From NCBI RefSeq assembly GCF_014349155.1, contig NZ_JACSIT010000091.1:1-64000 (forward strand): DNA of 64,000 nucleotides, read 5' to 3'. Made by a program: the position numbers and the translations under genes. Below, piece after piece: positions 42,194-59,344 of the stretch. The stretch's first letter is position 1. The number at the start of each line of letters is the position of its first letter. This DNA is from Neolewinella lacunae (GTDB lineage: Bacteria; Bacteroidota; Bacteroidia; Chitinophagales; Saprospiraceae). The notes below the pieces were generated by a model that saw nothing but the letters and a program-made list of their open reading frames with translations, was not told the DNA's origin and made no database searches.

Positions 42194-42227
42194 CGGAGGC
42201 TTCGCTTTAAGTGGAACTGATGAATAA

Positions 42228-43123: not shown

Positions 43124-44227
43124 TCAAGCCCCCAACTCCGCCAGCAAAATATCCCGGATCCGCTCTGCAGCCCGCCCATCCCAGAGGGGTGGAATGATGC
43201 CGGTTTTGGCGCGGCCGGCCAGGATGTTGTCGATCTCGGCCAAGACGGTATCGGGGTGCAGATCGGCCAGCAGCAGGTTCGTGCCCAGCTCCACCGTGAT
43301 CGGCCGCTCGGTCGTGTCGCGGAAGGTGAGGCAGGGGACCTGCAGGTAGGTCGTCTCTTCCTGGATGCCGCCGGAATCCGTCACAATCAGGCGCGCATTG
43401 TCCATGAGCTGCAAAAATTGCAGATAGCCCTGCGGCTCCAAAAGGTGGAGGTTTTCAATGGCCAACACTTCATCCAGCAGGCCAAAATGCGCAAAATTAT
43501 TGCGCGTCCGCGGGTGCATGGGAAAGACGACGGGCAGGCGACGGGCACTGCGCCGCAAAATATCCAGTATCGCCCCCAGCCCCTCGGCACCGTCTACGTT
43601 GTGCGGCCGGTGCATCGTCGTCAGGAGGTAAGATTTTGCTGCCAGCCCGAGGCCCTCCAGGACTTTCTCCTGCGCGGCTTTTTCCCGGAAGTGGATCAAA
43701 GAATCGATCATCACGTTGCCCACCAGGTGGATGCCCCGGCTCAGGGTATTTTCCCGGGCCAGGTTGACCAGGCCGCTGTGTTCCGTGACGAAGTGGTACT
43801 GGCAAATGGCGTCGGTCACTACGCGGTTGACTTCCTCGGGCATCGTCCGGTCCCCACTCCGCAGGCCCGCCTCCACGTGGGCTACGGGGATGCCCATCTT
43901 CACCGCTACCAGCGTGGTAGCCGTCGTGGCGTTTACGTCGCCCACCACCAAGACCAGATCGGGTTGCTCGGCCAGCAAGACCTCCTCGAATTTCAACATC
44001 ACGTTGGCCTTCTGGTAAGTATGGCTCCCCCCCCCCACGCCCAGGTGAAAGTGTGGCTCCGGCAAACCGAGTTGGTTGAAGAAGATGTCGCTCATCTTCG
44101 CATCGTAGTGCTGGCCGGTGTGGACAATGCGGCTGTCAATCTGGCCCGAAGCCACGAAGGCGCGGTGCAGCGGAGCTACTTTCATGAAGTTCGGCCGGGC
44201 ACCGACAACGGATAGGATCTTAATCAT
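43124..44227 (-). CDS. wecB: UDP-N-acetylglucosamine 2-epimerase, non-hydrolysing
   Basis: 367 residues. ILSVVGARPNFMKVAPLHRAF, HTGQHYDAKMSDIFFNQLGLPEPH, VHVEAGLRSGD in the form VAHVEAGLRSGDRTMPEEVNR, HPRTRNNF and TDSGGIQEETTYLQVPCLTFRDTTERPITV are the full WecB signature. It interconverts UDP-GlcNAc and UDP-ManNAc in the cytoplasm, feeding ManNAc-type sugars to the surface glycan. It is the last gene in the run from the NRPS side, 112 bases after the fucosyltransferase. A TACCTTTG box at 44232-44239 lies only four bases before the ATG. Confidence 0.9.
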   Translation of the reverse strand: MIKILSVVGARPNFMKVAPLHRAFVASGQIDSRIVHTGQHYDAKMSDIFFNQLGLPEPHFHLGVGGGSHTYQKANVMLKFEEVLLAEQPDLVLVVGDVNATTATTLVAVKMGIPVAHVEAGLRSGDRTMPEEVNRVVTDAICQYHFVTEHSGLVNLARENTLSRGIHLVGNVMIDSLIHFREKAAQEKVLEGLGLAAKSYLLTTMHRPHNVDGAEGLGAILDILRRSARRLPVVFPMHPRTRNNFAHFGLLDEVLAIENLHLLEPQGYLQFLQLMDNARLIVTDSGGIQEETTYLQVPCLTFRDTTERPITVELGTNLLLADLHPDTVLAEIDNILAGRAKTGIIPPLWDGRAAERIRDILLAELGA

Positions 44228-44231
44228 CGGA

Positions 44232-44239
44232 CAAAGGTA
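44232..44239 (-). promoter_or_regulatory. -7 box abutting the wecB start
   Basis: TACCTTTG on the minus strand exactly matches TAnnTTTG and ends five bases before the ATG. If it is used, transcription would start at or almost at the start codon, giving a leaderless message. No good -33 element. Confidence 0.4.
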
Positions 44240-44308
44240 GGGACAGTCCTGCTTTCCACGGCCAGCCAGCCCGGGCTTTGGCCCAACCTTGCTCCTTCAC
44301 TTTTCCCT

Positions 44309-44326
44309 GCACCTGCGACCGCGCCC
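44309..44326 (+). repeat. 18-bp dispersed repeat, one mismatch
   Basis: GCACCTGCGACCGCGCCC, in the 112-base gap between the fucosyltransferase and wecB genes. Confidence 0.85.
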
Positions 44327-44339
44327 TCCGCAACAATTC

Positions 44340-45218
44340 CTACATCCGCAGCCACGTGGCGGGCACCAGATCCGAAGTATCGATACTGGGGTCGGTAAAC
44401 CAGTTGGCCGGGGCAACGACGGTTTTCTCCGGACCCACGTTGAGCCAGGCCGCCCACCAGGCGAAGGAACTGTTCGGGATGATGAAGTGGCGGCAGGCCT
44501 GCATCAGGCGCAGGTAGTTGCCAAATTTCCAGCCCTTGTGCTCGTGCCCCACCACCTCGGTCGGGAAGTCCAGCACAATATTTTCCCGGCACCACGCCAC
44601 ATCATCGGAAAAGATGAAAAAGCGGGGTTCACTAAGCGTGCGCCCCAGGTGGTCGGCCGCCCGCAGGAAGTACTCGCGGTTGGTGGCGTTGAGAATGGCG
44701 TCCTGCAAAAAGTCGGTGCGGCGCACGTTCAGGCAAATCGAATTGCTCTCCCTGATCCGCGCCAGCAGGGCTTCCGACTCCGGCAAGAGCGGCCGACTGA
44801 ACTGAAAGTCGCGCCGGATTTCGTCCTCCACCCCGGCAAAGTAACGGGGGCTCTGCCACCAACCGTTGTAAATGACGCCCTCCTGCGGAGCCGCCAGCAC
44901 CGAGGCGTCGAAGTGGAAATGCGGCTCTTTGTACACCGCTTGCTTGCGCAGGTAAACGTAGCGCAGGCCCAGGCTCAAGTAGCGGTTTCGGAGGTTAAAG
45001 ACGGTCCGCAGCAAGGCTGGCGGCTGGAGGAAATCCGCCTCCACCCGGAAAACGTCCAGGTCATAATCCCGGTACACGAAACCCGGCGGGTTGTTGCGGT
45101 AGAGCAGGTTGGTGAGGTCGAATTTCAATTCCGTCCCCAGCTGCCGGGCCAACTGTTTGCCCAGGGCGTACTGGAACATCTGGTTCCCCATGCCGCCTTT
45201 TAGTCTGATCAGGATCAT
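44340..45218 (-). CDS. Alpha-1,2-fucosyltransferase-like (GT11)
   Basis: 292 residues. MILIRLKGGMGNQMFQYALGKQLAR is the GT11 N-terminal motif, with YNGWWQSPRYFAG, SICLNVRRTDF (the H/N-x-R-R-G/T-D donor motif) and FIIPNSSFAWWAAWL. It transfers fucose from GDP-fucose in an inverting alpha-1,2 manner. GDP-fucose is made by gmd and fcl 4-5 kb away. It begins 15 bases after the FkbM methyltransferase gene in the operon that starts with the NRPS genes, so its acceptor may be either the surface glycan or the glycosylated peptide. Confidence 0.85.
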   Translation of the reverse strand: MILIRLKGGMGNQMFQYALGKQLARQLGTELKFDLTNLLYRNNPPGFVYRDYDLDVFRVEADFLQPPALLRTVFNLRNRYLSLGLRYVYLRKQAVYKEPHFHFDASVLAAPQEGVIYNGWWQSPRYFAGVEDEIRRDFQFSRPLLPESEALLARIRESNSICLNVRRTDFLQDAILNATNREYFLRAADHLGRTLSEPRFFIFSDDVAWCRENIVLDFPTEVVGHEHKGWKFGNYLRLMQACRHFIIPNSSFAWWAAWLNVGPEKTVVAPANWFTDPSIDTSDLVPATWLRM

Positions 45219-45233
45219 GTGGTCTTAAGTGGT

Positions 45234-45986
45234 TTACTCGACGGCTGGCATTCGCGCGGCCATTTCCCCGAGGAGTTTTTCGCCCAGCTTGCGGTGGACG
45301 GCCAGGTGGTCAATACTGGTTTGGAAGACGCGGTATTGGGGGGCCAGAAAGGCCGCCGCGGCCGCCAGTTCTTCCGCCGCCAGGTGCTGGGCTTCGTAAA
45401 GGATGAAAGTGGGGGCGTAGCGGCTCAGGTCCAGTTGCCCGAGAATTTTCCAATCGTAGCCCTCGGTGTCGATGTGGAGCAGGTCGATGCCCGCAATATT
45501 GTGCCGCGCCAGTAAGTCGGCCAGCGTAATGCCCTCCACCGTGGTGGTGCGGACGTAAGGGGTCAAGACGCCGTCGAGTTCCTTTTCGATGTGGCCGCGG
45601 TAGAAGGAGCCCAGTTGTTCGTACCAGTAGGGCAGGTCGGGCAAGTCGGTCTTGGCCCGGGGGTCTACGTAGTAAAAGGGCAGCGCAGTGCCGTCGTTGA
45701 TGGCGACGTTGGCGAGTTGGAAGCGTTCCCGGTCGGGGTAGTTTTCCTGGAGGCGGGCGAAAGTGGCCGGCAGTGGCTCCACCAGCAGGCCGCGCCAGGC
45801 GGGGTAGCGTTGGAACAAGGGGTAGAGGGGGTCGCCCGTCTTACCGTCGTTGCTGCCGATCTGGACGATCTGGGCCGGGTGCCCCCCCAGCACCCTGGCG
45901 AACCAGTAGGCGGGGAAGCGAGGGTCCCGGAGGTAGGGCTTGCGCAACAGGCGGCGGCGCAGTTTTTTGAGGAAGGCTTTGATCAT
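45234..45986 (-). CDS. FkbM-family methyltransferase
   Basis: 250 residues from MIKAFLKKLRRRLLRKPYLRDPRFPAYW; codons upstream lie inside the preceding gene. AQIVQIGSNDGKTGDPLYPLF is SAM motif I, and LLVEPLPATFARLQENYP, TTVEGITLADLLARHNIAGIDLLHIDTEGYDWKIL and APTFILYEAQHL complete the FkbM pattern. Family members O-methylate polyketide, peptide or sugar hydroxyls. Its ATGA overlap with the GT1 gene suggests that both act on one product. This is a second FkbM enzyme; the other at 30050-30772 serves the glycan run. Confidence 0.8.
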   Translation of the reverse strand: MIKAFLKKLRRRLLRKPYLRDPRFPAYWFARVLGGHPAQIVQIGSNDGKTGDPLYPLFQRYPAWRGLLVEPLPATFARLQENYPDRERFQLANVAINDGTALPFYYVDPRAKTDLPDLPYWYEQLGSFYRGHIEKELDGVLTPYVRTTTVEGITLADLLARHNIAGIDLLHIDTEGYDWKILGQLDLSRYAPTFILYEAQHLAAEELAAAAAFLAPQYRVFQTSIDHLAVHRKLGEKLLGEMAARMPAVE

Positions 45987-47359
45987 GGTCGGATGACTTG
46001 TTCGGTGGGCATTTGCAGCCATTCGGCCACGCGTTTCTCGAGCGTTTGGGCAGTGGCGTAGGCCTGGCAAGACTGGCGCATGGCCAGCACCCGTTGCCGG
46101 TAGGCGGGGTCTTCCAGCACCGTCGCGATGTTGCGGGCAATGGCCCCAGCGTCGTCCACGTCCTTATCCGCCAGCAAGCCAACGCCGTGGTAATGGACAC
46201 GGGCGGCGCAGCCCGGTTGGTCCGATTGTTTGCCGGAATACACCAGCATGGGCACCCCACAGTGCAAACACTCGTGGATGGTGTGGATGCCCCCGTGGTT
46301 GATGGAAAGATCGGCCTGCCGCAGCACCCGCAGCTGGGGGACGTAAGTAAAAGTGTGGACTTGCTCCGGCAATTCCCCCAGCGCAGCGGGATCAAAAGTA
46401 CCGCCCAAGCCGAGGAATAGCGTCCAGTTCCTCCGAACCGCCACCGCCGCCACCAAGCGCCGGAGGAAAGCCGCATCGCCACCGGAAAGGGTGCTGATGG
46501 TGCAGAGGATGAGCTTGCGGCCCGACTTCGCCTGCTCCTCCAGCAAGTCACTGCACCTGCGGCCGCGCCCACTCCACGCATCGGCTTCCCACCGCTTTGC
46601 GTAGACCATTGGCCCAACGTAATGCAGACCCGGCCGGGGGACGTGCGGAAACTCCATCTCGTAGGGCGTCATCGTCAGCACCGGCAGTCTCGCGTAGCTG
46701 AACACTCCCGGCCACCAGTTTTCCCGGATGTAGGCCGGCGGGAAGCCATTTTCCCGCGCCAGGGCCAGCAGGACGCTGCGGCGGTCGGTGCCAAAACTGC
46801 GCCAGGCCATGCGGCGAAACATCCACTGTCGCTGCCGCCGCACCCGCTCCCAGTGGGCTGCAATGCCGGCCGGGCTCCCGCGTTCGCCCCCCCGCCCTGG
46901 AATGACGTCGGTCAGCAAATAAGGCAAACCCGGCTGTCGCCAAAGGGAGTACCACTGGCTCAGTAAAGCAAATTTCTGGCCCAGCCCGTAGGCGGCAAAA
47001 ATGTATTCGTGCAGCTCAATGTCGATCAAAACCAGGTCGGGGCGCAGTCGTTCCACCAAGGATTGAAAGGCGCGGGGGCGGTAGCGCTCCAGGGCCATCC
47101 TGCGCCGCTGCCGGCGCTGCCGGAAGCGCCACCAGATTCTGCCCACTTTGCCCAGGCCCGCTGGTAGTGACGGGGCCGGATCCGTGGAGATGAAAGGCAA
47201 CTCCTCAAAGACAAAACCCTCGGTTTCTACCCTTTCCCCCACCGGACGCGGAGCGGCCAGCACCACCCCGTGCCCCGCCGCCGTCAGGCGATCCGCAAGG
47301 GCCAGGCTGGCGTGGAGAATGCCCGTAAGACCGGTGGTGACGATCAACAACTGCGCCAT
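45983..47359 (-). CDS. GT1-family (UGT-like) glycosyltransferase
   Basis: 458 residues. MAQLLIVTTGLTGILHASLALADRLTAAGH is the UGT-like N-terminal start, and the C-terminal donor domain holds TFTYVPQLRVLRQADLSINHGGIHTIHECLHCGVPMLVYSGKQSDQPGCAARV, a good match to the HGG...GVP...QSDQ pattern of natural-product and macrolide glycosyltransferases. It begins exactly at the base after the NRPS stop codon (TAG, then ATG), so it is co-translated with the NRPS. A likely role is glycosylation of the peptide product. A copy of the 18-bp repeat gives S-G-R-G-R-R-C-S-D at the interdomain region. Confidence 0.8.
   Translation of the reverse strand: MAQLLIVTTGLTGILHASLALADRLTAAGHGVVLAAPRPVGERVETEGFVFEELPFISTDPAPSLPAGLGKVGRIWWRFRQRRQRRRMALERYRPRAFQSLVERLRPDLVLIDIELHEYIFAAYGLGQKFALLSQWYSLWRQPGLPYLLTDVIPGRGGERGSPAGIAAHWERVRRQRQWMFRRMAWRSFGTDRRSVLLALARENGFPPAYIRENWWPGVFSYARLPVLTMTPYEMEFPHVPRPGLHYVGPMVYAKRWEADAWSGRGRRCSDLLEEQAKSGRKLILCTISTLSGGDAAFLRRLVAAVAVRRNWTLFLGLGGTFDPAALGELPEQVHTFTYVPQLRVLRQADLSINHGGIHTIHECLHCGVPMLVYSGKQSDQPGCAARVHYHGVGLLADKDVDDAGAIARNIATVLEDPAYRQRVLAMRQSCQAYATAQTLEKRVAEWLQMPTEQVIRP
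46553..46570 (+). repeat. 18-bp dispersed repeat, exact copy inside GT1 gene
   Basis: GCACCTGCGGCCGCGCCC; on the coding strand it is read in a third frame as G-R-G-R-R-C, between the N- and C-terminal domains. Confidence 0.9.
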
Positions 47360-50300
47360 CTATTCTTCGTTCATGGCATCCAGCAGGCTGCGGATGACGG
47401 CCTCGGTGTGGGCCGCCAAGCTGCGCACCGTCGGGAAACGGAAAATGGTGTTGGCGGGCAAGTCAAGCTCCAGGGCATCGTTGATTTGGTTGATCAGGCG
47501 GATGGCCGACAGGGAGTGCCCCCCCAGGTCATGAAAACTCGTCGTTACACCAATGTCTTCCAGCCCCAGGGTGTCCCGCCAGAGCTGGAGGATGATGCCT
47601 TCTAATTCGTTGGCCGGAGCGGTGGCCTCGCCAGCCCCACCAACCAACACCGGCGCGGGCAAGGCGGCGCGGTCAATTTTGCCGTTGCTGTTCAAGGGGA
47701 AGTCGGCCAGGACCATGTAGTGCCCCGGCACCATGTAGGCGGGCAGTCGCTCGGCCAGGAAGGCCTGGGCCCCGTCGGCAGAAAAATCGTCCGCCACTAC
47801 GTAAGCTACCAGGTAGGCGTCGTGCCCTTCCTGCCGGGCCAGCACCTGGGCCCGCGTCACCCCCGGCAGCGTGAGCAAAACCGCTTCGATTTCCCCGAGT
47901 TCCACCCGGAAGCCGCGTAGTTTGATCTGGGAATCGATCCGCCCCAGGAAATCAATGTTGCCGTCGGGCAGCCACCGTGCCAGGTCGCCCGTGCGGTATA
48001 GGCGCTGGGGCGTGCCCCGGCCGTCGATGGCTACCCGGACGAATTTCTCGGCCGTCAGCTCCGGCTTGCCGTGGTAACCGAGGGCCACCTGCAGGCCGCC
48101 GATGTGGAGCTCTCCCGGCACCCCCGGCTCGCAGCGCACCCCGTCGGGCCCCAGAATGTAGAGCGGAACGTTGGGCAGGGGCCGCCCGATGGGGACTTGC
48201 GTTAGCGCCGGCCCCGCCGCGGGAGCCCGCCAGTGCGTCACCTCAATGGAGGCTTCCGTGGGGCCGTAGAGGTTGTGGAGTTCTACGCCCGGGAGCCGCG
48301 AGCGGAAGAGGTTCACCTGGTGCGGCGTCAGCGCTTCGCCACTGCAAAAAACGCGGCGAAGGCTCGGCAATTCCAGCGGCCCGCCCAGAAAAGCCTCCAG
48401 CATGGGCGGCACAAAATGGGCGATCGTGATGCCTTCGCGCCGGATGAGGGCAGCGAGGTATTGGTTGTCTTTGTGCCCCTCGGGTTTGGCAAATACCAGC
48501 TTCATGCCCGTCATCAAGGGCCAGAAAAGTTCCCAGATGGAGACGTCGAAACAGTAGGTCGTTTTTTGCAGCAGCACGTCGGAGTCCGCCGATACGGGGA
48601 AGGCCCGGAGGCCGAATCTGAGGCGGTTCATCACCCCCCGGTAGCGGTTGCGCACGCCCTTCGGCTGGCCCGTCGATCCCGAAGTATGGATGATGTACAT
48701 GAGTTGGTCCGGGCCGGGCCGGAGAATGGGGCGGCCCGCCGGATGGTCGGCAAAAACCGGCGGAGCGGCATCGAGCAAGACCAGTTCACCCTCGTGCAGC
48801 GGGCGCAGGGTCGCCGCGTAGCGTTCCTGGGTGAGCAAGACCGGGGCGGCGGTATCTTCCAGGAGGTAGCGGATGCGCAGGGCAGGGTAGGTGGGGTCAA
48901 TGGGCACGTAAGCCGCCCCCGCCTTGAGGATGCCGAGCAGGCCCACCATCATCTCCACCGAGCGGTCCAGGCAGATGGCCACCGGCGTTTCGGGCGGCAG
49001 CTGGAGGGCCAGCAGGTAGTTGGCCAGGCGGTTGGAGCGCTCGTCGAGGGCCGCAAAAGTGAGGGACGTCGCTTCGGCCACCACGGCGGTGCGAGCAGGG
49101 TGGTAATCAACGCTGGCGTAGAAAAAATCGAGCACCGTGTCTTCCCCGAGCAGGCTGGGGTCGACGGGATTAAAAGTATCGAGCAGGGCGCGGCCGCAGG
49201 TGCTGGGGAAGTTGACCGGCAAGGAGCGGTCGGCCAGGAAATCCTCCAGCAAATCCAGGTACTGCTGCGGGAGCAAGCGCTGCAAGGCCGGGTCGATGAT
49301 GGCATCGTTGCAATCAAAGCAGAGGTCCAGCCGTCCTTTCCCCTCGAAGTCGAAAACCTGAAATTTGAGGTGGTGCCCGGGCTCGGTGTGGCCAGGGTGC
49401 AGCCATTCGGCCTCCAGCGCGGGGTCCCCCTCCCCCACCAACGCCTGGTTGAGGTAGTTGAAAAGTACGTTGAAGCGCTGGTTGAGCTGCGCAGAACTCG
49501 TGCCCGGCTTGGCGTAGCGCAGCCATTCCATGGTTTCGGCCCGGACTTTGGCCAAGAGGCTGGCGAAGGTGTCTTCCGGACTGATCTGCACGCTCTGGGG
49601 AAAGAGCTCCATCAGCAGGCCGGGCGTCTTTTTGTCGGCCGCACTCAGTCGGTGGTGGGCGGGAACGCCGATGCAGGGCCGTGCGCCGCCGCTGATCCGG
49701 TGGAGGAGGGCGAAGAGGACGGTGGCAAAAACGGTGTAGCGGGCCAGGTCCACCGACCAATTGCGCACCTCCGGCGTAGCACAGACTGCGTCGAGGCGGG
49801 CCATCGTCGCCGCGTCCAGCGTACGGAGGTAGCGGAGGGTGCGGCTGGCCCGCTCGGGGTTGCCCCGGCCGAACAACAAGGGGGGCGTGGGGAGTTCCCG
49901 GGCTTTTTCCGCCCAGTAGGCCGTGGTTTTTTCCCGCTCCGGCGTTGTTGCTGCCAGCGCATCCGCTTCCAGGTAACGGCGGAAGCTGGAGAAGTCCCCC
50001 TCCGGAAGAGGCAAGCCAGCGGCCAGTGCAGCGTAGGCGGCCTCGACGTAGCGGAATTGCAAGGCCAGGCTCCAGCCGTCGGTGATGAGGTGGTGCTGGT
50101 TGAAGTACCAAACGTAGTGATCTTCGGCCACCTTCAGCAGGGCGAGGTCGAAGAGGTGCTCCCCGGGCGAGAACACGCGCTGGCAACGTTCGTCCAGCCA
50201 GGTGGCCAGTAGCCCGGCGGGGTCGGCGGCGGCGGAGCAATCGAAGTAGCTTAAGGCAGCGGACGGTGGCACCGCGAAGGTCTGCTCGGGTTCTCCGTCG

Positions 50301-50512
50301 CGTTCCCCGAACACCAGGTGCAGGGCATCGAAGCGCTCCACCAGCGCCTGGCAGGCTTGGCGAAAAAGTTCCGGGTCAATGGCGCGCCGCCAGGTGAAGG
50401 CGAACGCCATGTTGTTGAGCGGACTACCGGGCAGCAGGCGTTGGCCGGTCCATACCCAGGTTTGGGTCCGGGTGAGGGGATAACGGTCGGCGTTGGACGA
50501 TTGGCTAGGCAT
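47360..50512 (-). CDS. NRPS module, C-A-T (serine-like specificity)
   Basis: 1050 residues. Condensation domain 1-440 with the intact HHLITDGWS at 140-148; adenylation domain about 460-960 with the A3 motif HTSGSTGQPKG and YGPTEASIEVTHW; peptidyl carrier domain at the end with GGHSLSAIRL, where Ser1000 would carry phosphopantetheine. The pocket residues I read are D-V-W-H-F-S-L-I-E-K, close to the serine code DVWHFSLVDK of EntF. No thioesterase or epimerisation domain is present. An exact 18-bp repeat at 49186 is read S-T-C-G-R-A. It lies after the carrier-protein gene by 21 bases and before the GT1 gene by none, so product assembly and glycosylation are one operon. Confidence 0.9.
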   Translation of the reverse strand: MPSQSSNADRYPLTRTQTWVWTGQRLLPGSPLNNMAFAFTWRRAIDPELFRQACQALVERFDALHLVFGERDGEPEQTFAVPPSAALSYFDCSAAADPAGLLATWLDERCQRVFSPGEHLFDLALLKVAEDHYVWYFNQHHLITDGWSLALQFRYVEAAYAALAAGLPLPEGDFSSFRRYLEADALAATTPEREKTTAYWAEKARELPTPPLLFGRGNPERASRTLRYLRTLDAATMARLDAVCATPEVRNWSVDLARYTVFATVLFALLHRISGGARPCIGVPAHHRLSAADKKTPGLLMELFPQSVQISPEDTFASLLAKVRAETMEWLRYAKPGTSSAQLNQRFNVLFNYLNQALVGEGDPALEAEWLHPGHTEPGHHLKFQVFDFEGKGRLDLCFDCNDAIIDPALQRLLPQQYLDLLEDFLADRSLPVNFPSTCGRALLDTFNPVDPSLLGEDTVLDFFYASVDYHPARTAVVAEATSLTFAALDERSNRLANYLLALQLPPETPVAICLDRSVEMMVGLLGILKAGAAYVPIDPTYPALRIRYLLEDTAAPVLLTQERYAATLRPLHEGELVLLDAAPPVFADHPAGRPILRPGPDQLMYIIHTSGSTGQPKGVRNRYRGVMNRLRFGLRAFPVSADSDVLLQKTTYCFDVSIWELFWPLMTGMKLVFAKPEGHKDNQYLAALIRREGITIAHFVPPMLEAFLGGPLELPSLRRVFCSGEALTPHQVNLFRSRLPGVELHNLYGPTEASIEVTHWRAPAAGPALTQVPIGRPLPNVPLYILGPDGVRCEPGVPGELHIGGLQVALGYHGKPELTAEKFVRVAIDGRGTPQRLYRTGDLARWLPDGNIDFLGRIDSQIKLRGFRVELGEIEAVLLTLPGVTRAQVLARQEGHDAYLVAYVVADDFSADGAQAFLAERLPAYMVPGHYMVLADFPLNSNGKIDRAALPAPVLVGGAGEATAPANELEGIILQLWRDTLGLEDIGVTTSFHDLGGHSLSAIRLINQINDALELDLPANTIFRFPTVRSLAAHTEAVIRSLLDAMNEE
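49186..49203 (-). repeat. 18-bp dispersed repeat, exact copy inside NRPS gene
   Basis: GGGCGCGGCCGCAGGTGC on the plus strand; on the coding strand read S-T-C-G-R-A, in the linker between condensation and adenylation domains. Confidence 0.9.
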
Positions 50513-50533: not shown

Positions 50534-50776
50534 TTAGGCTCTGCGGGCAGCGCTTACGTAACGGGCCATTGCAGCCACGGTCAGGAAGTTTTCGATGGCC
50601 ATATCCTGGGGTTGGACCCGGAAGTGGAAGGTGTTTTCCAGGTGTTCGACGAGGCGCATCATTTCCATGGAGCCGAGCAGTCCACTGCCCAGGAGGTCGT
50701 CCTCGGGGTCAATGTCCAGGCTTTGGTCTCCGGCGTGGATCTCGTTTTTGATGTAGTCGATGATGGTTTGTTCCAT
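50534..50776 (-). CDS. Stand-alone acyl/peptidyl carrier protein
   Basis: 80 residues. The helical carrier fold is evident, with DDLLGSGLLGSMEMMRLVEHLENTF, where Ser36 is the expected phosphopantetheine site (LGS-M in place of the usual DS-L). It is small enough to be a free PCP of the PltL/RedO kind. It is coded 24 bases after the stand-alone adenylation gene and 21 bases before the NRPS module. Loading by the adenylation enzyme and oxidation by the acyl-CoA dehydrogenase is the expected order. Confidence 0.85.
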   Translation of the reverse strand: MEQTIIDYIKNEIHAGDQSLDIDPEDDLLGSGLLGSMEMMRLVEHLENTFHFRVQPQDMAIENFLTVAAMARYVSAARRA

Positions 50777-50800
50777 GTTGGATCGCTTGGGATGGTCGGT

Positions 50801-52375
50801 TCAGGAGGGGACTTGGTCCGCCAGGAGAGATTGGAGCGCCGGGCGGTCAATTTTGTCGGATCCGGTGCGGGGGAAAGATTCCCGAAGGTACAGGCTTTCG
50901 GGGAGGGCGTACCAGGGGAAGGCGGCGGCGAGGTGCTCTTGGAGGTCTTGCACGGTGGCTTCGTCGCCGGCCCGGAGGATGACGGCCACGACAATGCTGA
51001 GGGCATCGGCCTGGCGCTGGACGGTCACCGCCGCCGCTTCCGCTACGGCCGGATGGGTCAGCAAGTGGGCTTCGAGTGCACTGAGTTCTACGCGGTAGCC
51101 CCGGATTTTCACCTGATGGTCGCGGCGGCCCAGGAAGTGGAGGACGCCAACGGGGTCTTCCCGAACGAGGTCGCCCGTCCGGTAAAAACGCTCCGTGGAT
51201 CCTCCCTGGGTAACGTGGGTGTACCAGGCCCGCGTGCTCAACTCCACTTGGTTCCAGTAGCCGAGCATGTTGGTGGTGGCGCGGATGAGGAGTTCCCCGC
51301 TGTTGCCCGTTGCGACGGGCTGGTCTTGGTCGTCGACAATCAGGCGTTCGGTATTGTCCCACACCTCTCCGATGGGGATGGACGCGTCGTCTTGGGGCGG
51401 ACCGGGGAGGTCGTAGACGGTGCAGACGTTGGTTTCGGCCGGGCCGTACCAGTTGGCGATGCGGGTAGTCGGGAGCAATTCAGCCAGCTGCCGGGCGTAG
51501 CGGGGGGCGAGGGGCTCGCCGGCGTAAAAGAGGTAGCGGAGGGAAGTGAGGTCTTGGCCAGCCAGTGCCCCGGCGTTGAGGAGCTGGGTTATGGCCAGGG
51601 GAACGGAGTACCAGACCGTCAGCCGTTCTTCGCCGAAGAGCCGCCCCAGGCTGGCGGGCAGGACGGTGTGGGCATCAGTGGCCAGTACGGCGGTGGCGCC
51701 CACGAGCGGAGCGCCGAAATAGGCCAGTTGGGAGATATCGAAATAGATGGGCGCGTGGTTGCCGAAGCGGTCTTGAGGGCCAAAGGCGTAGCGGGCCGCA
51801 GCGTTGCGCACGAAGGCCAATCCGCTGGCGTGGCTGTGCATGATGCCCTTGGGTTGGCCCGTCGAGCCGGAAGTATAGATGAGGTAAGCCAGGTCGGTTT
51901 CCACCTGGCGGGGAACGGCAAAAGTGGCGGGAGGAGCAGCGAAAACCGTGGGCCAATCCACGGCTGGGTAGTCCTCCACCTCGCTCATTCCAACGATGCC
52001 CTGCACCTGCGGCCGCGCCCCCAACAGCTTCAGTAGACTGCGGCGTTGGGAAGGGTGCGTGACGAGGATGCGGATGCCACAGTCTTGCAGGAGGAAGTGG
52101 TTTTGGCTTTCGGGGGCCTTGGGGTTGAGGGGGACGTAAACCGCGCCGCAGCGCAGGATGCCGAAGATGGCCACCGCCGTTTCTAAGGAACGGCCGAGGA
52201 AGATGCCGACGCGGTCGCCCCGCCGGACGCCAAAGTCGTACAATACCGTGGCCAACTGGTCCGCCCGCTGCACCAGCTCGGCGTAGGTCAGTGCCGCGCC
52301 CGCACAGCGAAAAGCCTCCTGCGTGGGGTCACGGTCGGCGGAAGCCAGGATGGTATGCGGCAGGAGATAGATCAA
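50801..52375 (-). CDS. Stand-alone adenylation enzyme, prolyl-AMP ligase-like
   Basis: 524 residues starting at a TTG (52375) that overlaps the upstream stop as TTGA; no ATG start fits better. A3 is YTSGSTGQPKG (167 on), then RFGNHAPIYFDIS, WYSVP, LFYAGEPL, NWYGPAETNVCT, RTGDLV, and the catalytic Lys in GSDKIDRPAL. The pocket residues I read are D-I-L-Y-F-A-W-V-C-K. The prolyl-AMP ligases of pyrrole pathways (PltF, RedM, CloN4 type) have DLLYLALVCK as I recall it, so seven of ten agree. L-proline is therefore the predicted substrate. It has no carrier domain of its own and would load the next gene's carrier. An exact 18-bp repeat gives L-G-A-R-P-Q-V-Q. Confidence 0.85.
   Translation of the reverse strand: MIYLLPHTILASADRDPTQEAFRCAGAALTYAELVQRADQLATVLYDFGVRRGDRVGIFLGRSLETAVAIFGILRCGAVYVPLNPKAPESQNHFLLQDCGIRILVTHPSQRRSLLKLLGARPQVQGIVGMSEVEDYPAVDWPTVFAAPPATFAVPRQVETDLAYLIYTSGSTGQPKGIMHSHASGLAFVRNAAARYAFGPQDRFGNHAPIYFDISQLAYFGAPLVGATAVLATDAHTVLPASLGRLFGEERLTVWYSVPLAITQLLNAGALAGQDLTSLRYLFYAGEPLAPRYARQLAELLPTTRIANWYGPAETNVCTVYDLPGPPQDDASIPIGEVWDNTERLIVDDQDQPVATGNSGELLIRATTNMLGYWNQVELSTRAWYTHVTQGGSTERFYRTGDLVREDPVGVLHFLGRRDHQVKIRGYRVELSALEAHLLTHPAVAEAAAVTVQRQADALSIVVAVILRAGDEATVQDLQEHLAAAFPWYALPESLYLRESFPRTGSDKIDRPALQSLLADQVPS
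52003..52020 (+). repeat. 18-bp dispersed repeat, exact copy inside adenylation gene
   Basis: GCACCTGCGGCCGCGCCC; on the coding strand read as G-A-R-P-Q-V-Q, in a surface loop before the A2/A3 region. Confidence 0.9.
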
Positions 52376-53523
52376 AGCCCGAGGAGTTTGGCGATGATGT
52401 TGCGCTGGATGTCGGAAGTGCCGGCGTACAGCACGCCGCCAACGGCATCGCGCAGGTCTTTTTCGACGCCGTAGTCGTGAAGGTAGCCCGCGCCGCCGTG
52501 GGTGCGGATGGCATCGAGGCTGGAGGCCACGAAGGCTTCGCTGAGCTGGAGTTTGAGCAGGGCCGCTTCGAGGCGGGCGGCTTTGCCCTGTTGTTTGAGC
52601 CAGGCCGTTTTGTAGAGGAGGAGGCGGGAGGTTTCCAGGCGGAGCTTCATATCGGCGATGCGGTGGCTGACGGCCTGAAAGCCGCCGATGGCCTGCCCAA
52701 ACTGCTTGCGCTGGCGGGCGAAGGCGATGGCCGTTTCCAACTGCCGCTCCATGGCCCCGAGCTGGGAGGCGAGGATGGCGCAGCGGTCGTACTCCAGAGA
52801 GTGGTTCATGATGGAGAAGCCCAGCCCCTCCGTGCCCAGCAGGCTGCTGGCCGGCACGTGGCAATCGGTAAAGGTGAGGGACCCGAAGGGGATGGACCGC
52901 ATGCCCATCTTGCTCATCTTCTCGCTGCTGCTGAAGCCCGGCGTTCCGCGCTCCACCAGAAAGGCCGAGATGCCCCAGCTGCCGCGTTCGGGCCGGGCGT
53001 TGGCAAAGACCAGGACGACGTCGGCAATGGGGCCCAGGGTGATGAGGGCTTTGGTGCCGTTGAGGACGTAGCCAGTGTCGGTCTTGCGGGCGGAGAGCTG
53101 CATGCTCATCACGTCGGAGCCCGCGTCGGGTTCCGTCAGGGCGTGGGCCCCGATGCTGCGCCCCTGGGCCATGGCGGGCAGGTAGCGTTCCTTCTGGGCG
53201 GCATTGCCGAAGTGCAGGATGGGCGTCATCACCGTCCACATCTGGGCGTTGAGGGCGAAGGCCAAACCGTTGTCGGCACAACCCCGGCCGAGGGCCTCCA
53301 TGGCCAGGATGGCGCGCAGGAAGTCGACCTTCTCCAGTGGTCCGCCGTAGGCCGCTGGAAGGGCCAGGGCCTGGATGCCAAAGGCGGCACAGCGCTCCCA
53401 GTCCTGGCGCGGAAACTGCTGCTGTGCATCGTTATTCAGGTGTTGCGCGCCAAGCTCGGCGGTGGCAAAGTCGGTGACCGATTGCTGGTAAGTCAGGTAA
53501 GCTTCGGGCCAGGAGAAATCCAT
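52372..53523 (-). CDS. Acyl-CoA dehydrogenase (PltE/RedW-like prolyl-carrier oxidase)
   Basis: 383 residues from MDFSWPEAYLTYQQ. ALTEPDAGSD (129-137), AIGGFQAVSHRIADMKLRLETSRLLLY, IRTHGGAGYLHDYGVEKDLRDAVGGVLYAGTSDIQRNII all match acyl-CoA dehydrogenases, and the C-terminal half follows the prolyl-S-PCP oxidases (PltE type) closely as I recall them. The Glu of the usual IYEGT motif is Ala367. The alternative catalytic Glu seen in isovaleryl-type enzymes corresponds here to Asp246 in EYDR. It overlaps the adenylation gene. Expected role: oxidation of prolyl-carrier to pyrrole-2-carboxyl-carrier with FAD. Fatty-acid oxidation is unlikely in this context. Confidence 0.85.
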   Translation of the reverse strand: MDFSWPEAYLTYQQSVTDFATAELGAQHLNNDAQQQFPRQDWERCAAFGIQALALPAAYGGPLEKVDFLRAILAMEALGRGCADNGLAFALNAQMWTVMTPILHFGNAAQKERYLPAMAQGRSIGAHALTEPDAGSDVMSMQLSARKTDTGYVLNGTKALITLGPIADVVLVFANARPERGSWGISAFLVERGTPGFSSSEKMSKMGMRSIPFGSLTFTDCHVPASSLLGTEGLGFSIMNHSLEYDRCAILASQLGAMERQLETAIAFARQRKQFGQAIGGFQAVSHRIADMKLRLETSRLLLYKTAWLKQQGKAARLEAALLKLQLSEAFVASSLDAIRTHGGAGYLHDYGVEKDLRDAVGGVLYAGTSDIQRNIIAKLLGL

Positions 53524-53621: not shown

Positions 53622-55865
53622 CTAGAAAGTATAGCGCAGGACGCCACGAATCTGGAAAGGGGTGCCGGGGGTGAAGTGAATCTCTTCGACGCTGTTGAGT
53701 TCGTTGCGCAGCCGCGACTCGGTGGCGAACTGGGTTTCGTTCCAGTCTACGTCGAGGAGGTTGTCAATCGTCAGGCCGAGGGTGAAAGGGCGGAAGTTGT
53801 AGTTGGCGTTGAAGTCCACCACGGTGTACCCCTTGGCTACAATGCTGTTGTCTTCGTTGGCGGGTCGGTCGCCGAGGTAGCGCAGGCGGATGCCGCCGGT
53901 GAAGTCTCCCTGAATGGCGTTGAGGGCACCTACGAGGGTGGAAATTGGGGCCAGGGGGATGAGGTCTTCGCCCTCCGCCGCTTCGAGGCTGCGGGCGCGG
54001 GTGTAGGTATAATCGACCGTGGCGTAGAGCCAGTCGGCCGCCTGGTAGCGCAGGCCTACGTCGATGCCGTAGCGGCGGGTTTCGCCACTGGGTTCCACGA
54101 TGCCGGCGTCGCCGACGTACACAAATTCCTGGTCGAGTTTCAAGTACCACAGCGCCACGTTGGCGACCATGCGGGGCAGGGGCTTGAAGATGGCCCCCAG
54201 GTCGGCCCCGTAGGCGGAGGGGAGGATCTCGCGGTTGTCTTGCTCCAGCACCACGCGGGTGTCGTTGGAGTGGAATCCAATGCCAGTTTTGAAGAAGAGC
54301 TGCACGTCGTTGCTGGCGTTGTAGATGGCGCTGAACTTGGGCGTCACCTTGCCTCTCGTCTGGCCCAGCGGATCGTAGAGGGGCGTCAGGTCGTTGAGGT
54401 AGTTGTACTGGAAGTAGTCGTAGCGGAGGCCGGGGCGGAAGACGAAGTTGCCCACGTCAAATTCCGCATCGGCGAAGGCGTAGAGGTTGCGCTCATCGAC
54501 GTCCCCCTGCTGGATGATTTCCAGCGTTTCGGTGCGGTTGAGGGTACGGCTCAGGGAGTTGCCTTCGCTGCGGTCGGCACGCAGGCCCGCCCCGATGCGG
54601 AACAGTGCGCTGACGTCGCCGAGGTAAGCCACTTTATTGTAGCTGCTTTCGAAGCCGAACAAGCGGCGGTCTTCCACCTGGCGGATCTGGTCGCCGTTGA
54701 CGGGGTCTTCGAGGAAGAATGTGAAGTTGGAGAAGAGCTCAAAATCGTACAGCGAGTAGTACATGTTGGCCTTTACGAAGGAGTTCTTCGGCATGAGGCG
54801 GCTGAGTTCGAGGGCGACGTTGGTGCGGCTGGTGTTGCCACCCTCCGTATCGTCGATGGCCCCAAAGCGGGTGATGGTGCCGTCGGCAACGGCGCGTTCG
54901 GGGATCTGCCCAGAGGCGTCCCACTCACTCTCGAAGTGCGAAGCCAGGAGGGAAAATTGCAGGCCATTATCCAGCACCCCTGAGTACTTCGCCATCAGGT
55001 TGTTGCGGTAGAAATTCTGCGACGACTCAAAGGGGCCGTCGGAATGGAGGTACTCGGCAGCAACGTAAGCGTGGCGGTTGGCCGTATCGAGCAGCGAGAC
55101 CATACCCAGGGTGCGGAAGGTATTGAAATTGCCCACTTCCAAACCGATCTGTGAGGATTCCAGGCGGTCTTTGGTTTGGAAATTGACGTAGCCGGCGGTG
55201 TTGAAGTTGCCTACATCGGCGTAGTAGGGCCCTTTGCCAAAGTCGATCTTATCCACCGTTTCGGGGATGAGGAAGTGCAAATCGGCGTAGCCCTGCCCGT
55301 GGGCGTGGGAGACCATATTAACGGGCATACCGTCTACCGCGATGGCGATGTCCGTTCCGTGGTCGATGTCAAAGCCGCGCAGAAACAACTGTTCGGCCTT
55401 GCCCCCTCCGGCGTGCTGGCCGATGAACAGCCCGGGAACTTTGCGGAGGATTTCCTGGCTCGACTTGACGGGGTCGATCTCGACGTCAATGGCCGAGACG
55501 AGGTTGAACTCCCGGCTGTTGTTTTTCACAACGATCTCGCCGAGGTCGTAGTAGGATTCTTCCAGGACGATCTTCAGGCGGGCCTCGGGATCCCGGACAA
55601 TCACCCGCGCGGGCTTGAAGCCCAGGTAGGTCGTCAGCAGCGTATCGCCGGTATTGACGCCGCGGATGAGAAAGTTGCCAAATTCGTCGGAGTGGGTATG
55701 GGTGTCACTTCCGGCCAAAGAAACGTAAGCCCCCAGCAGCGGAGTACCGGCTTCAGACTGAACGCGTCCCTGGACATTTTGCCCCGGCACGACGCCGGGC
55801 GTGGCCACGCAGGCCAGCAAAAAAAAGAAACTCAACACCCGGTGGCGGAGTAAAAACTGTTCCAT
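53622..55865 (-). CDS. TonB-dependent outer-membrane receptor
   Basis: 747 residues: signal peptide to about residue 28, then a carboxypeptidase-regulatory-like domain (VQGRVQSEAGTPLLGAYVSL ... LTTYLGFKPARV), a plug domain (ILRKVPGLFIGQHAGGGKAEQLFLRGFDIDHGTDIAIAVDGMPVN) and a barrel ending IRGVLRYTF. Internal DTANRHAYVAAEYL and GLRYQAADWLYATVDYTYTRARS are typical barrel strands. It is not a SusC-length protein and no SusD gene follows. It lies on the same strand just upstream of the NRPS operon, so it could import the siderophore-like product or a precursor. The substrate is unknown. Confidence 0.85.
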   Translation of the reverse strand: MEQFLLRHRVLSFFFLLACVATPGVVPGQNVQGRVQSEAGTPLLGAYVSLAGSDTHTHSDEFGNFLIRGVNTGDTLLTTYLGFKPARVIVRDPEARLKIVLEESYYDLGEIVVKNNSREFNLVSAIDVEIDPVKSSQEILRKVPGLFIGQHAGGGKAEQLFLRGFDIDHGTDIAIAVDGMPVNMVSHAHGQGYADLHFLIPETVDKIDFGKGPYYADVGNFNTAGYVNFQTKDRLESSQIGLEVGNFNTFRTLGMVSLLDTANRHAYVAAEYLHSDGPFESSQNFYRNNLMAKYSGVLDNGLQFSLLASHFESEWDASGQIPERAVADGTITRFGAIDDTEGGNTSRTNVALELSRLMPKNSFVKANMYYSLYDFELFSNFTFFLEDPVNGDQIRQVEDRRLFGFESSYNKVAYLGDVSALFRIGAGLRADRSEGNSLSRTLNRTETLEIIQQGDVDERNLYAFADAEFDVGNFVFRPGLRYDYFQYNYLNDLTPLYDPLGQTRGKVTPKFSAIYNASNDVQLFFKTGIGFHSNDTRVVLEQDNREILPSAYGADLGAIFKPLPRMVANVALWYLKLDQEFVYVGDAGIVEPSGETRRYGIDVGLRYQAADWLYATVDYTYTRARSLEAAEGEDLIPLAPISTLVGALNAIQGDFTGGIRLRYLGDRPANEDNSIVAKGYTVVDFNANYNFRPFTLGLTIDNLLDVDWNETQFATESRLRNELNSVEEIHFTPGTPFQIRGVLRYTF

Positions 55866-56310: not shown

Positions 56311-58104
56311 ATGCACGAACTAAAAAAAGTAGTGGCCATTCTCTCGCTGGCGGAGCGAAAAAAGTTTGCCTGGCTGGCCCTGGTGATCTTTGTGATGGGC
56401 CTGCTGGAGGTGGTGGGCGTGGTGTCTATTTTACCCTTCATCAAACTGGTGGCCGACCCCGGCATTGTAGACCGGCACCGGGTGCTCTACAACATCTACC
56501 ACTGGCTCCACTTCAGCAGCCAGCGGCAGATGCTCATCTGGGCCGGGGTGGCCGTCATCGTCTTGCTGCTCCTGACCAATGCCTTCTCAGTGTTCAAGAC
56601 CTGGCTGCAATTCCGCATCTCCTGGAGTGTGGCCCACCACGTGAGCATGCGCCTGCTCCAGACCTACCTGGGGCGGCCCTACGAGTATTTCCTGCGGCGG
56701 AATACGACGGAGTTTACGGCCAACGTCATCGGAGAAACCACCAACTTTACCAACGGGGTGGTTTTGCCCCTCATCGAGATCTTCTCCCGGGGCCTCGTCT
56801 CGCTGATCATTTTCGGTCTCCTGGTGTGGGTAGATCCCTTCATCGCCCTGGTGATGTTTGGCTTCTTGGGGGCGGCCTACCTGGTCATTTACTTCGCCCA
56901 ACGCAGCTACCTGCGCCGCATCGGGGAGTTGCGCATGGCCCTGGTCATCAAACGCTATAAAAACCTGCAGGAGATGTTTGCCGGCATCAAGACAGTGCAA
57001 GTCTTCAACCGCCAGGCTTTTTTCGCCGACCGCTACGAGGCGGCCTCCCTGGATTTTTGCGACATCCAGCCGAAGTACAATGTAATTGTCGCCTCCCCCC
57101 GCTACATCCTGGAAGTGCTGGCCTTCGGGGCCATCGTGGGCATTACCATCTACCTGTACCTTACCGAGGGCAACATCGCCAAACTGTTCCCTAAGTTGAG
57201 CCTCTACGCCGTGGCGGGTTACCGCTTATTGCCCGCGCTGCAATCGGCCTTCGCGGCGGTGGGAAAGTTTGTCCACAACTACCCCGTCATCGATAAGCTC
57301 TACGCCGCCCTTTACGCCGATCACCTGCCGCAGGAAGCGGCCCTACAGCCCCCCGGCGAGGCCCTGCCCCTGCGCGAAGCCATCACGCTGCACCAGGTCG
57401 GCTTCAGCTACGAGGGCAACGAACAGGCGACCTTACGAGACATCAACCTGACCATCCGCCGGGGCGAAACCGTGGCCTTCGTGGGCACCACCGGATCGGG
57501 CAAAACGACCTTGGTGGACCTCATCGTGGGCCTCCTGCACCCCAGCCGGGGCAGCGTTTGCATTGACGGCCGGGCGCTATCCGCCGAACAGCTGGCGGCC
57601 TGGCGCAGCAGCGTAGCTTACGTGCCACAAGACGTTTTTCTCTTCGACGACTCCGTTGCCCGCAACATCACCCTGCGGGAGGGGGGCGTGTCCGACGAGC
57701 GACGCCGGCTGGATGAGGCAACGCAGCTGGCCGACATTCACCGCTTCATCCAGGAAGAACTGCCCGCCGGCTACGCAACCCAGATCGGCGAAAAAGGCGT
57801 CCGACTCAGCGGTGGGCAGCGGCAGCGCCTCGGCCTGGCCCGCGCCTTTTACCACCGGCCCTCGGTCCTGATTCTGGACGAAGCCACCAGCGCGCTCGAT
57901 AACGTCACCGAACGCGGCATCATCCATGCGCTCCAGGGACTGCCCGAGGGCATTACCACCATCCTGATCGCCCACCGCCTGTCTACCGTCCGCTACGCCG
58001 ACCGCATCTTTTTGCTCGACGAGGGCCGGCTCGTAGCCTCCGGAACCTACGAAGAACTGCTCACCCACAACGACCTTTTCAAAAACATGGCCCAGGCCTA
58101 CTGA
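56311..58104 (+). CDS. ABC transporter, fused permease and ATPase
   Basis: 597 residues. Six membrane helices in residues 1-330 (WLALVIFVMGLLEVVGVVSILPF; LIWAGVAVIVLLLLTNAFSVF and others), then an ATPase domain with GTTGSGKTTL (Walker A), SYVPQDVFLFDD-type Q-loop in VAYVPQDVFLF, LSGGQRQRLG signature and VLILDEATSALD (Walker B). This is the MsbA/peptide-exporter type, working as a homodimer that flips lipids or exports hydrophobic products. As the first gene of the operon with the terminal NRPS, it is the probable exporter of the peptide. A lipid-glycan flippase role is possible. Confidence 0.88.
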   Translation: MHELKKVVAILSLAERKKFAWLALVIFVMGLLEVVGVVSILPFIKLVADPGIVDRHRVLYNIYHWLHFSSQRQMLIWAGVAVIVLLLLTNAFSVFKTWLQFRISWSVAHHVSMRLLQTYLGRPYEYFLRRNTTEFTANVIGETTNFTNGVVLPLIEIFSRGLVSLIIFGLLVWVDPFIALVMFGFLGAAYLVIYFAQRSYLRRIGELRMALVIKRYKNLQEMFAGIKTVQVFNRQAFFADRYEAASLDFCDIQPKYNVIVASPRYILEVLAFGAIVGITIYLYLTEGNIAKLFPKLSLYAVAGYRLLPALQSAFAAVGKFVHNYPVIDKLYAALYADHLPQEAALQPPGEALPLREAITLHQVGFSYEGNEQATLRDINLTIRRGETVAFVGTTGSGKTTLVDLIVGLLHPSRGSVCIDGRALSAEQLAAWRSSVAYVPQDVFLFDDSVARNITLREGGVSDERRRLDEATQLADIHRFIQEELPAGYATQIGEKGVRLSGGQRQRLGLARAFYHRPSVLILDEATSALDNVTERGIIHALQGLPEGITTILIAHRLSTVRYADRIFLLDEGRLVASGTYEELLTHNDLFKNMAQAY

Positions 58105-58123: not shown

Positions 58124-59344
58124 ATGCGATTTTCTACCCATCAACTGCTGCCCCTGCTGTTCAGCATGCTCTTCCTTTTCCCGCCGAGCGCCCACGCCCA
58201 CGCCCCAGACCAGAGCTACCTCTACCTCAGCATTTACCAGGACAACATCAAGGGACGCTACGAGATTTCGCTTTCCGACATCAACCGCGCCGTCGGGTCC
58301 CAACTAACACGGCCCATGACCGCAGCGGCCTTCGAGCCCTACCTGGAGCCACTGCGGGCTTACATCCAGCGCCGCTCCAGCTTTACCGGAAACGTCCCGT
58401 ATACGATCACCTTTACCGACTTTGAGGTCGTCAACCTGGAAGAAGAGGAAGACTTCGTCCGCATCGGCTTCACGCTGGGTGCGCTTACCAGCATTCCCGA
58501 TTCCTTGGACATCACCTACAACCTGCTGTTCGATGTTTCCCCCAACCACAGCGGCGGCCTCATCCAAGAGCACAACTGGAAGGCGGGGGTGCTGAACAAC
58601 TACGCCAAACTCTCGGCCATCTTCGATAAAAACACCACGCGGCAAACGCTGGACCTCACGAACGGCTCCGTTTGGCAAGGTTTCACCGCCCTGGTAAAAC
58701 TCGGCATGTGGCACATCTGGATCGGGCTGGACCACATCCTTTTCCTCGTAGCCCTCATCCTGCCTTCCGTCGTGCGCCGGCGGCCCCGGGCAATTCCTAT
58801 GGCAAAAGGCAAAAACTGGGAGTGGGTCCCGGTGCAAGACTTCAAATCGGCGTTCCTGTACATCCTCAAGATCGTCACGTCCTTCACCATCGCCCACTCC
58901 ATCACGCTGGCGCTGGCGTCGTTGGACATCGTCACGCTCAATTCCCGCCTGGTGGAAAGCATCATTGCCTTTTCCATCGCCGTGGCGGCTTTCCACAACA
59001 TCGTCCCCATTTTCCGGGCGCGGGAGTGGGTGATCACCTTCATTTTTGGCTTGTTCCACGGCTTCGGCTTCGCCAGTGTGCTGGGGGAAAAGGGCTTGAG
59101 CGGCGATTACATGGCCTATTCCCTGCTGGGCTTCAACATCGGGGTAGAAATTGGACAGGTGCTCATTGTCTGCATGATCTTCCCCATCCTCTTCCTGATC
59201 CGGAAAACCCGCTTCTACCCCCACTTTGTCCTCTGGGGGTCGGTCTTCCTCATCCTCATGGCGCTGCACTGGGTGATCGAGCGGGCCTTCGATTTCAACT
59301 TCAAGTTTTTTGACCTGTTCAAAAATATCTTTGGCATTTCCTAA
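58124..59344 (+). CDS. HupE/UreJ-family membrane protein
   Basis: 406 residues. Signal peptide (MRFSTHQLLPLLFSMLFLFPPSAHAHA), an extracytoplasmic domain of about 170 residues, then a HupE/UreJ membrane part with WIGLDHILFLVALIL, FTIAHSITLALASL, SIIAFSIAVAAFHN and FGLFHGFGFASVLGEKG; the His/Asp residues in these helices are the family signature and suggest a metal carrier. E. coli-type relatives move nickel or cobalt. It sits between the exporter and the NRPS, 19 and 23 bases apart. Its link to the peptide pathway is unclear; metal supply or product handling are both possible. Confidence 0.8.
   Translation: MRFSTHQLLPLLFSMLFLFPPSAHAHAPDQSYLYLSIYQDNIKGRYEISLSDINRAVGSQLTRPMTAAAFEPYLEPLRAYIQRRSSFTGNVPYTITFTDFEVVNLEEEEDFVRIGFTLGALTSIPDSLDITYNLLFDVSPNHSGGLIQEHNWKAGVLNNYAKLSAIFDKNTTRQTLDLTNGSVWQGFTALVKLGMWHIWIGLDHILFLVALILPSVVRRRPRAIPMAKGKNWEWVPVQDFKSAFLYILKIVTSFTIAHSITLALASLDIVTLNSRLVESIIAFSIAVAAFHNIVPIFRAREWVITFIFGLFHGFGFASVLGEKGLSGDYMAYSLLGFNIGVEIGQVLIVCMIFPILFLIRKTRFYPHFVLWGSVFLILMALHWVIERAFDFNFKFFDLFKNIFGIS

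Follow-up and report, generated by a model that had tools for sequence, protein, structure and literature searches.

The window analyzed here, a 64,000-nucleotide stretch of Neolewinella lacunae (contig NZ_JACSIT010000091.1, positions 1 to 64,000), contains a cassette of three adjacent minus-strand genes for a prolyl-carrier-protein dehydrogenase-type flavoenzyme, a stand-alone adenylation enzyme, and a free peptidyl carrier protein (PCP). We lean toward the reading that this cassette supplies the starter of a copper or nickel metallophore, an oxidized Pro-Ser-His peptide with dedicated export and uptake. What makes the cassette interesting would then be its place at the head of a conserved peptide line that ends in histidine and has a histidine-tipped metal permease as neighbor, and not its mere presence in Bacteroidota. 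The first-pass annotation had called such a cassette notable in this host, but when 100 genomes from the family were surveyed (window genome included; dehydrogenase match at 1e-80), 11 gave a match and 10 carried this type, one of them as a fragment. The eleventh genome has a distant type only (41%), one of the ten (G095) has an additional distant copy (38%), and a second genome of the window's genus, the only other in the set, gave no match.

The starter cassette and its oxidase

The minus-strand order is dehydrogenase (52372 to 53523, 383 amino acids [aa] from an ATG), adenylation enzyme (50801 to 52375, 524 aa, TTG start), carrier protein (50534 to 50776, 80 aa), and a synthetase with condensation, adenylation, and thiolation domains (C-A-T). 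The four genes are contiguous: the start of the adenylation gene overlaps the dehydrogenase stop by 4 bases, and gaps of 24 and 21 bases lie before and after the carrier gene. Pfam finds acyl-CoA dehydrogenase (ACAD), AMP-binding, and PP-binding domains in the three cassette genes, so the coordinates, kinds, and order given in the first-pass annotation hold. Since the same gene order occurs in relatives from several phyla, the arrangement is not due to chance. The carrier has its serine at residue 36 (codon 50669 to 50671), invariant in 10/10 aligned sequences.

For the adenylation enzyme, the best single-domain match in the PDB was PltF (6o6e; 260 bits); six rows scored higher (LgrA and 8xjz), each the sum of two stretches. 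Aligned to PltF, the pocket reads DILYFAWVC against DLLYLALVC, with agreement at six of nine positions, and a lysine (Lys517) is present. With the lysine that we take PltF to have as well, agreement rises to 7/10, which reproduces the pocket (DILYFAWVCK) and the count reported before. The nearest orthologue, from locus L025 of Neolewinella persica, has DILYLALVC and shares 8/9 positions with PltF. Proline is therefore the likeliest substrate, as far as the pocket residues tell.

The dehydrogenase falls among enzymes that act on prolyl carriers. Its best PDB matches were AnaB (4irn; 375 bits), PigA (5zw0; 291 bits), and Bmp3 (6cxt; 288 bits), whereas the best ordinary acyl-CoA dehydrogenase reached 257 bits. 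A family profile gave 481, 367, and 377 bits for AnaB, PigA, and Bmp3, respectively, with no further protein below 1e-100. An AlphaFold2 model (mean predicted local distance difference test score [pLDDT] of 82) matched AnaB with a template modeling (TM) score of 0.96 and ranked AnaB, Bmp3, and PigA at the top, in a fold that is common to all such dehydrogenases. In a tree of 57 rows, from which fragments of <320 aa and locus L022 (taken as a copy of L058) were left out, the window enzyme lies within the AnaB/PigA/Bmp3 clade and is split from seven fatty-type rows with 100/100 support; two methanotroph rows that had been labeled fatty-type beforehand were placed inside the prolyl-carrier clade on a long branch. 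The PDB matches and the tree position rule out a fatty-acyl dehydrogenase, the grouping that the first-pass annotation had named as its own refutation. A catalytic base at the position used in medium-chain acyl-CoA dehydrogenase is also ruled out: the window has YAGT, compared with YEGT in 6/9 comparison rows.

Asp246 of the window enzyme (codon 52786 to 52788, minus strand), within SLEYDRC and with YAGT further on, stands where PigA, AnaB, and Bmp3 have their catalytic glutamate (the E of WEK or WER). Each of the 19 rows that make up the window's clade in the tree (support, 96/90) has LEYDR, and so does the partial row L050. Glutamate is kept in every other row printed, and the partial row L052 has LEYER with YAGT. 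In the aligned stretch, 6af6 (titled PigA with FAD and proline) differs from 5zw0 by an alanine at this place. The tree fits a single origin of the exchange of glutamate for aspartate. In the part of the source available, the glutamate is described as essential in AnaB and Bmp3, and an enzyme with methionine there N-oxygenates (PMC10849742). Since Asp246 is conserved and aspartate is able to act as a base, an active enzyme is expected, and oxidation of proline on the carrier is likely. The first-pass annotation had named the cassette as of the PltE/PltF/PltL type. Gene set, order, the proline-like pocket, and the oxidase clade agree with this, but the plain label is weakened by the aspartate, by scores that miss the NCBIfam equivalog cutoffs (390 of 500 bits for PigA and 367 of 650 bits for RedW), and by AnaB being the nearest solved relative.

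AnaB halts at pyrroline, and AnaB-like chemistry in the window, with removal of two electrons and a 1-pyrroline-carboxyl carrier, would yield a ligand with an imine nitrogen. This is possible, with perhaps a third of our belief behind it, and is compatible with a metallophore. It is favored by the first rank of AnaB in the sequence, profile, and fold comparisons; however, AnaB is one of just three solved relatives, it joins other tree rows (90/72) and not the window's clade, and whether two or four electrons are removed (pyrroline or pyrrole) cannot be read from sequence. The aspartate clade would be a natural experiment on what determines two- versus four-electron oxidation of proline.

Assembly line and predicted product

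The C-A-T synthetase (47360 to 50512, minus strand; HHLITDG at residue 140) has the serine-like pocket DVWHFSLIE. The second nonribosomal peptide synthetase (NRPS; 59368 to 63429, plus strand) adds a thioesterase domain to the same three domains and has the histidine-like pocket DSALMAEVW, which agrees at 8/9 positions with DSALIAEVWK, a code named in a paragraph on histidine-activating domains in the available part of PMC12283262. Its condensation motif is HHIIGDR, with arginine in place of the usual glycine, at a position that is variable in relatives too. The thioesterase has a cysteine nucleophile motif, GTCFSN, where serine is usual; the pattern was found in the window and in L016, L017, L019, L108, and L109 (L numbers denote loci, here those of relatives) and missed the second synthetase of L032, a protein of 1,339 aa. 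Only two condensation-domain matches were found in the whole genome (99.36% complete), both in these synthetases, and X-Ser-His is therefore predicted; with the starter, the predicted product is (oxidized prolyl)-Ser-His. That the cassette feeds a serine and a histidine module next to genes of metal-transport type had escaped the first-pass annotation.

The histidine-type pocket is shared among relatives. At all nine positions, DS[AV]L[MI]AEVW was found in 15/15 second synthetases read; L020, L021, and L029, partly read, agree, and from L039 only DS was read. In L018, L030, L031, L033, and L035, the stretch covered shows no adenylation domain of the second synthetase, so the cyanobacterial histidine module was unread. 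The second synthetases of L019, L108, and L109 are longer (about 1,830 to 1,890 aa), with an extra condensation motif and one adenylation domain read, and those of L019 and L108 have an extra carrier motif too; in these relatives, a unit may be added or the product dimerized.

Position 2 comes in two types. Serine-type pockets were found in five loci (the window, L014, L019, L025, and L024, the last with DVPHFSLVE), whereas fifteen loci have DLTKIGE[VI]G, a pocket that we take as specific for asparagine, and L021 has DLSRVGEVG. The starter pocket changes with the subtype: Ala301 in 5/5 serine-type loci, Gly301 with Gln330 in 16/16 of the other kind (Fisher's P = 6e-5 for 5 versus 15, relatedness not corrected for). 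At least two subtype switches are needed on the dehydrogenase tree. A gene of the ornithine cyclodeaminase family scored >300 bits in 13/16 asparagine-type loci; L021 has a weak one, at 92 bits, L040 and L052 (a fragment) have none, and no such gene was seen in any of the five serine-type loci. In addition, the adenylation-domain protein of the asparagine type has a PP-loop insert with SGGKDS[TS] and, in the cases inspected, CxxC pairs. The insert occurs in 15 loci (L015, L017, L018, L020, L027 to L033, L035, L039, L040, and L042): 14/16 asparagine-type loci and L042, whose pocket was partly read. L021 is without it, L052 is cut, and the window's serine module does not have it. In L015 (NRPS protein, 12449 to 16633), the one locus for which this was done, residues 905 to 1224 match the N-acetyl sugar amidotransferase WbuX in NCBIfam (2e-35; 123 bits versus a cutoff of 203 bits), and since the score is below the cutoff, the insert is a relative of WbuX and not a member. 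Amidination or a similar reaction is a possible function.

These data bear on whether the starter could be a larger cyclic imino acid, such as pipecolate, with aspartate in place of glutamate making room. Gly301 with Gln330, the cyclodeaminase-family gene, and the LEYDR dehydrogenase common to most asparagine-type relatives would suit such a substrate, but no match to the cyclodeaminase family was found in the window genome and the window pocket has Ala301, as in every serine-type pocket, and Val330, both as in PltF, which makes it unlikely here.

Apart from these lines, L018 (9690 to 10460) and L021 (9422 to 10228) each have a sulfotransferase gene that separates the dehydrogenase gene from the adenylation gene. 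In L054 (10239 to 11720), an ACAD of the prolyl-oxidase type adjoins a stand-alone adenylation enzyme with the asparagine-like pocket DLTKVGEVG, so that perhaps another amino acid is oxidized on the carrier. Cassettes of ACAD, adenylation enzyme, and PCP near flavin halogenase-like genes (tested with Pfam in L022 only) occur in L022/L058, L060, L034, and L041; with DLxYxALV pockets and a glutamate as the base residue, they represent a type of their own, halopyrrole-like, that occurs in both Bacteroidota and Chloroflexota.

The HupE permease and a proposed metallophore

Upstream of the second synthetase lies a gene for a two-domain HupE/UreJ-2 permease (58124 to 59344, plus strand), the long form of PF13795, with a histidine after an AHA cleavage-like site and an HX5DH motif. 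PF13795 by itself does not mark the cluster: it occurs in 83/100 family genomes. With a frame limit of >400 aa, which was chosen after the list was seen, HupE was found in 10/10 cluster genomes and 3/90 others (P = 1.7e-11). Of these three, G038 has a cluster truncated where its contig ends; in the remaining two, HupE is the only recognized cluster gene within 20 kb, and their scores of 134 and 108 bits are far lower.

Parts of the core recur across Bacteroidota, cyanobacteria, Calditrichota, Chloroflexota, and Gammaproteobacteria; named relatives are Neolewinella persica, Agaribacillus aureus, Kriegella, Flavisolibacter, Crocosphaera, Leptolyngbya PCC 7375, and Adonisia turfae, and others are in Calditrichota, Chloroflexota, and Gammaproteobacteria assemblies. 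We chose 29 loci that in our judgment have the core in common; they come from 27 genomes, as L014 and L108 belong together and so do L024 and L109. L034, L037, L038, L041, and L059, from the same 28-row dehydrogenase clade, were excluded; no C-A-T synthetase with HupE was seen alongside, although L059 has a synthetase-like gene. HupE is present in 23/29 core loci, or 20/26 without the three loci fetched via HupE (L107 to L109). Of the six remaining loci, two (L014 and L024) belong to genomes that carry HupE on another contig, two (L050 and L052) are short fragments, and two (L039 and L040) come from Chloroflexota. In L036, from Calditrichota, HupE and the cassette are present, but the locus stops short of any synthetase.

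All 23 cluster HupEs have the HX5DH motif, and in 23/23 (21/21 of those aligned), histidine directly follows a signal-peptide-like stretch, mostly with an AxA or similar ending, from which cleavage was deduced. The best PDB match of the modeled outer domain (pLDDT of 91) was copper-bound Ang-1 (9gce; E value of 1.8e-7), and all 17 fold matches at an E value of ≤0.001 were entries of Ang-1, ZrgA, or PA4063, of which ZrgA and PA4063 are zinc bound. Ang-1 binds copper and nickel with dissociation constants of 74 nM and 220 nM, respectively, according to the available part of PMC12537917.

A TonB-dependent outer membrane receptor with a CarbopepD_reg_2 domain (53622 to 55865, minus strand) stands side by side with the NRPS line and has weak PDB matches only (BtuB, the colicin I receptor, and YncD/PqqU). 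An ABC exporter-type protein with membrane and ATPase parts in one chain is encoded at 56311 to 58104 (plus strand). A gene for a 4'-phosphopantetheinyl transferase (63396 to 64000, plus strand) runs beyond the window end (L013, 1396 to 2163). A GT1-family glycosyltransferase gene (45983 to 47359, minus strand), probably accessory, adjoins the C-A-T synthetase gene with a gap of 0 bases. Beyond it, from 27928 to 45986, lies a large glycan island (NeuB, cytidylyltransferase, pyruvyl transferase, GDP-mannose dehydratase, UDP-GlcNAc 2-epimerase, FkbM, and several glycosyltransferases), and genes of this type are also found on the other side, in L013.

The steps from loading to release are suggested by the residues described above, and the uptake roles by the gene neighborhood. 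The adenylation enzyme would activate L-proline and load the free carrier, on which the flavoenzyme, with Asp246 as base, would form the 1-pyrroline or pyrrole-2-carboxyl thioester. The first synthetase would join this starter to serine, the second would add histidine, and the cysteine-type thioesterase would release (pyrrol(in)e-2-carbonyl)-Ser-His. X-Y-His is the classical amino-terminal copper- and nickel-binding (ATCUN) site, which suits both metals; in the predicted peptide, the ring nitrogen, two amide nitrogens, and the imidazole nitrogen would have its donor spacing. The ABC protein would export the metallophore, the TonB receptor would recapture it, and the metal would be passed to the permease via its N-terminal histidine domain.

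Several observations weigh against a metallophore. Dehydrogenase activity is not assured with Asp246 in place of glutamate; the starter pocket agrees with PltF at just the six positions, with an unusual Trp322; and the pocket of the first module matches the serine codes DVWHLSLVDK and DVWHMSLVDK, as given in the available part of PMC12283262, at only 6/9 positions. In fold, the HupE outer domain is only remotely similar to 9gce (TM score of 0.57, 13% identity, and root mean square deviation of 8.0), and a sequence search with this domain gave no metal protein and nothing meaningful. A histidine after the signal peptide is described as a general trait of two-domain HupE forms in the available part of PMC12537917 and was also seen by eye in L105, and it is therefore no proof of a link to the peptide. 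NiFe-hydrogenase matches were not enriched (3/10 cluster genomes versus 33/90 others), and weak matches to the urease alpha subunit in 6/100 genomes included none of the ten cluster genomes and one in the contig-cut G038, so that a need for nickel is not indicated. No metal-responsive or other regulator site was found: no Rfam RNA reached the gathering score in 40000 to 64000, and a TAAGTAG-N6-CTACTTA palindrome, considered as a shared operator and found in L015 and L026 among 14 intergenic stretches scored, is absent from the window. The Chloroflexota loci L039 and L040 have an NRPS line but no HupE within the available stretch, and the TonB gene and the like ABC exporter were found in 14/29 and 10/29 core loci, several of them cut. 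Neither a siderophore chelator pathway (catecholate, hydroxamate, or alpha-hydroxy acid) nor a FecCD or binding-protein gene was found among the cluster genes scanned with Pfam.

The cassette could instead be the classical pyrrole-2-carboxyl starter of an exported, possibly glycosylated, antibiotic-like peptide that the TonB receptor and HupE merely accompany. The gene set resembles the PigA/RedW cassettes, an exporter gene is present, and the GT1 gene abuts the first module and occurs in 10/29 core loci. However, the frequency of HupE in the core loci and a histidine-type last module wherever it was read are a better fit to metal handling, and we consider such a product improbable. An iron siderophore with an unrecognized chelating unit is very unlikely: the TonB receptor is weakly like siderophore, heme, and B12 receptors, but the chelator pathways named above are missing from the cluster genes scanned, a HupE-type permease takes the place of FecCD, and X-Y-His suits copper and nickel.

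Wider meaning and comparison with known systems

Beyond the window, we propose, with slightly less confidence than an even chance would carry, that the core stands for nonribosomal ATCUN-type metallophores of several phyla. These would consist of a cyclic, oxidized imino acid cap, serine or asparagine, and histidine, would be bound for histidine-tipped HupE, and would have cap oxidases of the aspartate-for-glutamate clade and, in the asparagine type, an adenylation domain with the amidotransferase-like PP-loop insert. If this is true, the X-Y-His copper/nickel site known from proteins is imitated by short nonribosomal peptides made in several bacterial phyla, and these peptides would be a natural source of metal for the histidine-tipped HupE permeases that were described recently. 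Copper and nickel metallophores could then be sought, in a directly testable way, through one conserved gene set in which the usual siderophore markers were not seen. No paper on this cluster was among those listed in searches of an open literature collection; most subscription papers were not covered, so this is weak evidence of novelty.

The cassettes of the PigA, PltE/PltF/PltL, RedW/RedM/RedO, and Bmp3 pathways have the gene set and order seen in the window, and they share with it the oxidase clade and fold and the proline-like pocket. The window differs from them by aspartate for glutamate, YAGT for YSGT or FSGT, and NCBIfam scores below the cutoffs; moreover, its cassette feeds serine and histidine modules, and no polyketide synthase or halogenase is among the cluster genes scanned. 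AnaB, the prolyl-ACP oxidase of anatoxin-a formation, is the closest solved relative by sequence and fold but has the glutamate (MEWER); a further difference is that the scan of the window's cluster genes showed no polyketide synthase. In chalkophomycin formation by ChmG-J, as far as the available part of PMC10849742 describes it, a carrier-bound proline is likewise oxidized and the product binds copper; there, a second flavoenzyme with methionine at the glutamate site N-oxygenates, whereas the window has one enzyme, with aspartate. Finally, the anglerases, HupE/UreJ-2 permeases represented by Ang-1 and Ang-2 (PMC12537917, available part), resemble the window permease in PF13795, in the histidine after the signal peptide, and in the outer domain, which is closest to 9gce. 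The neighbors named there, such as DUF4198 proteins and kinases, include no NRPS, whereas in the window the permease gene lies beside an NRPS line.

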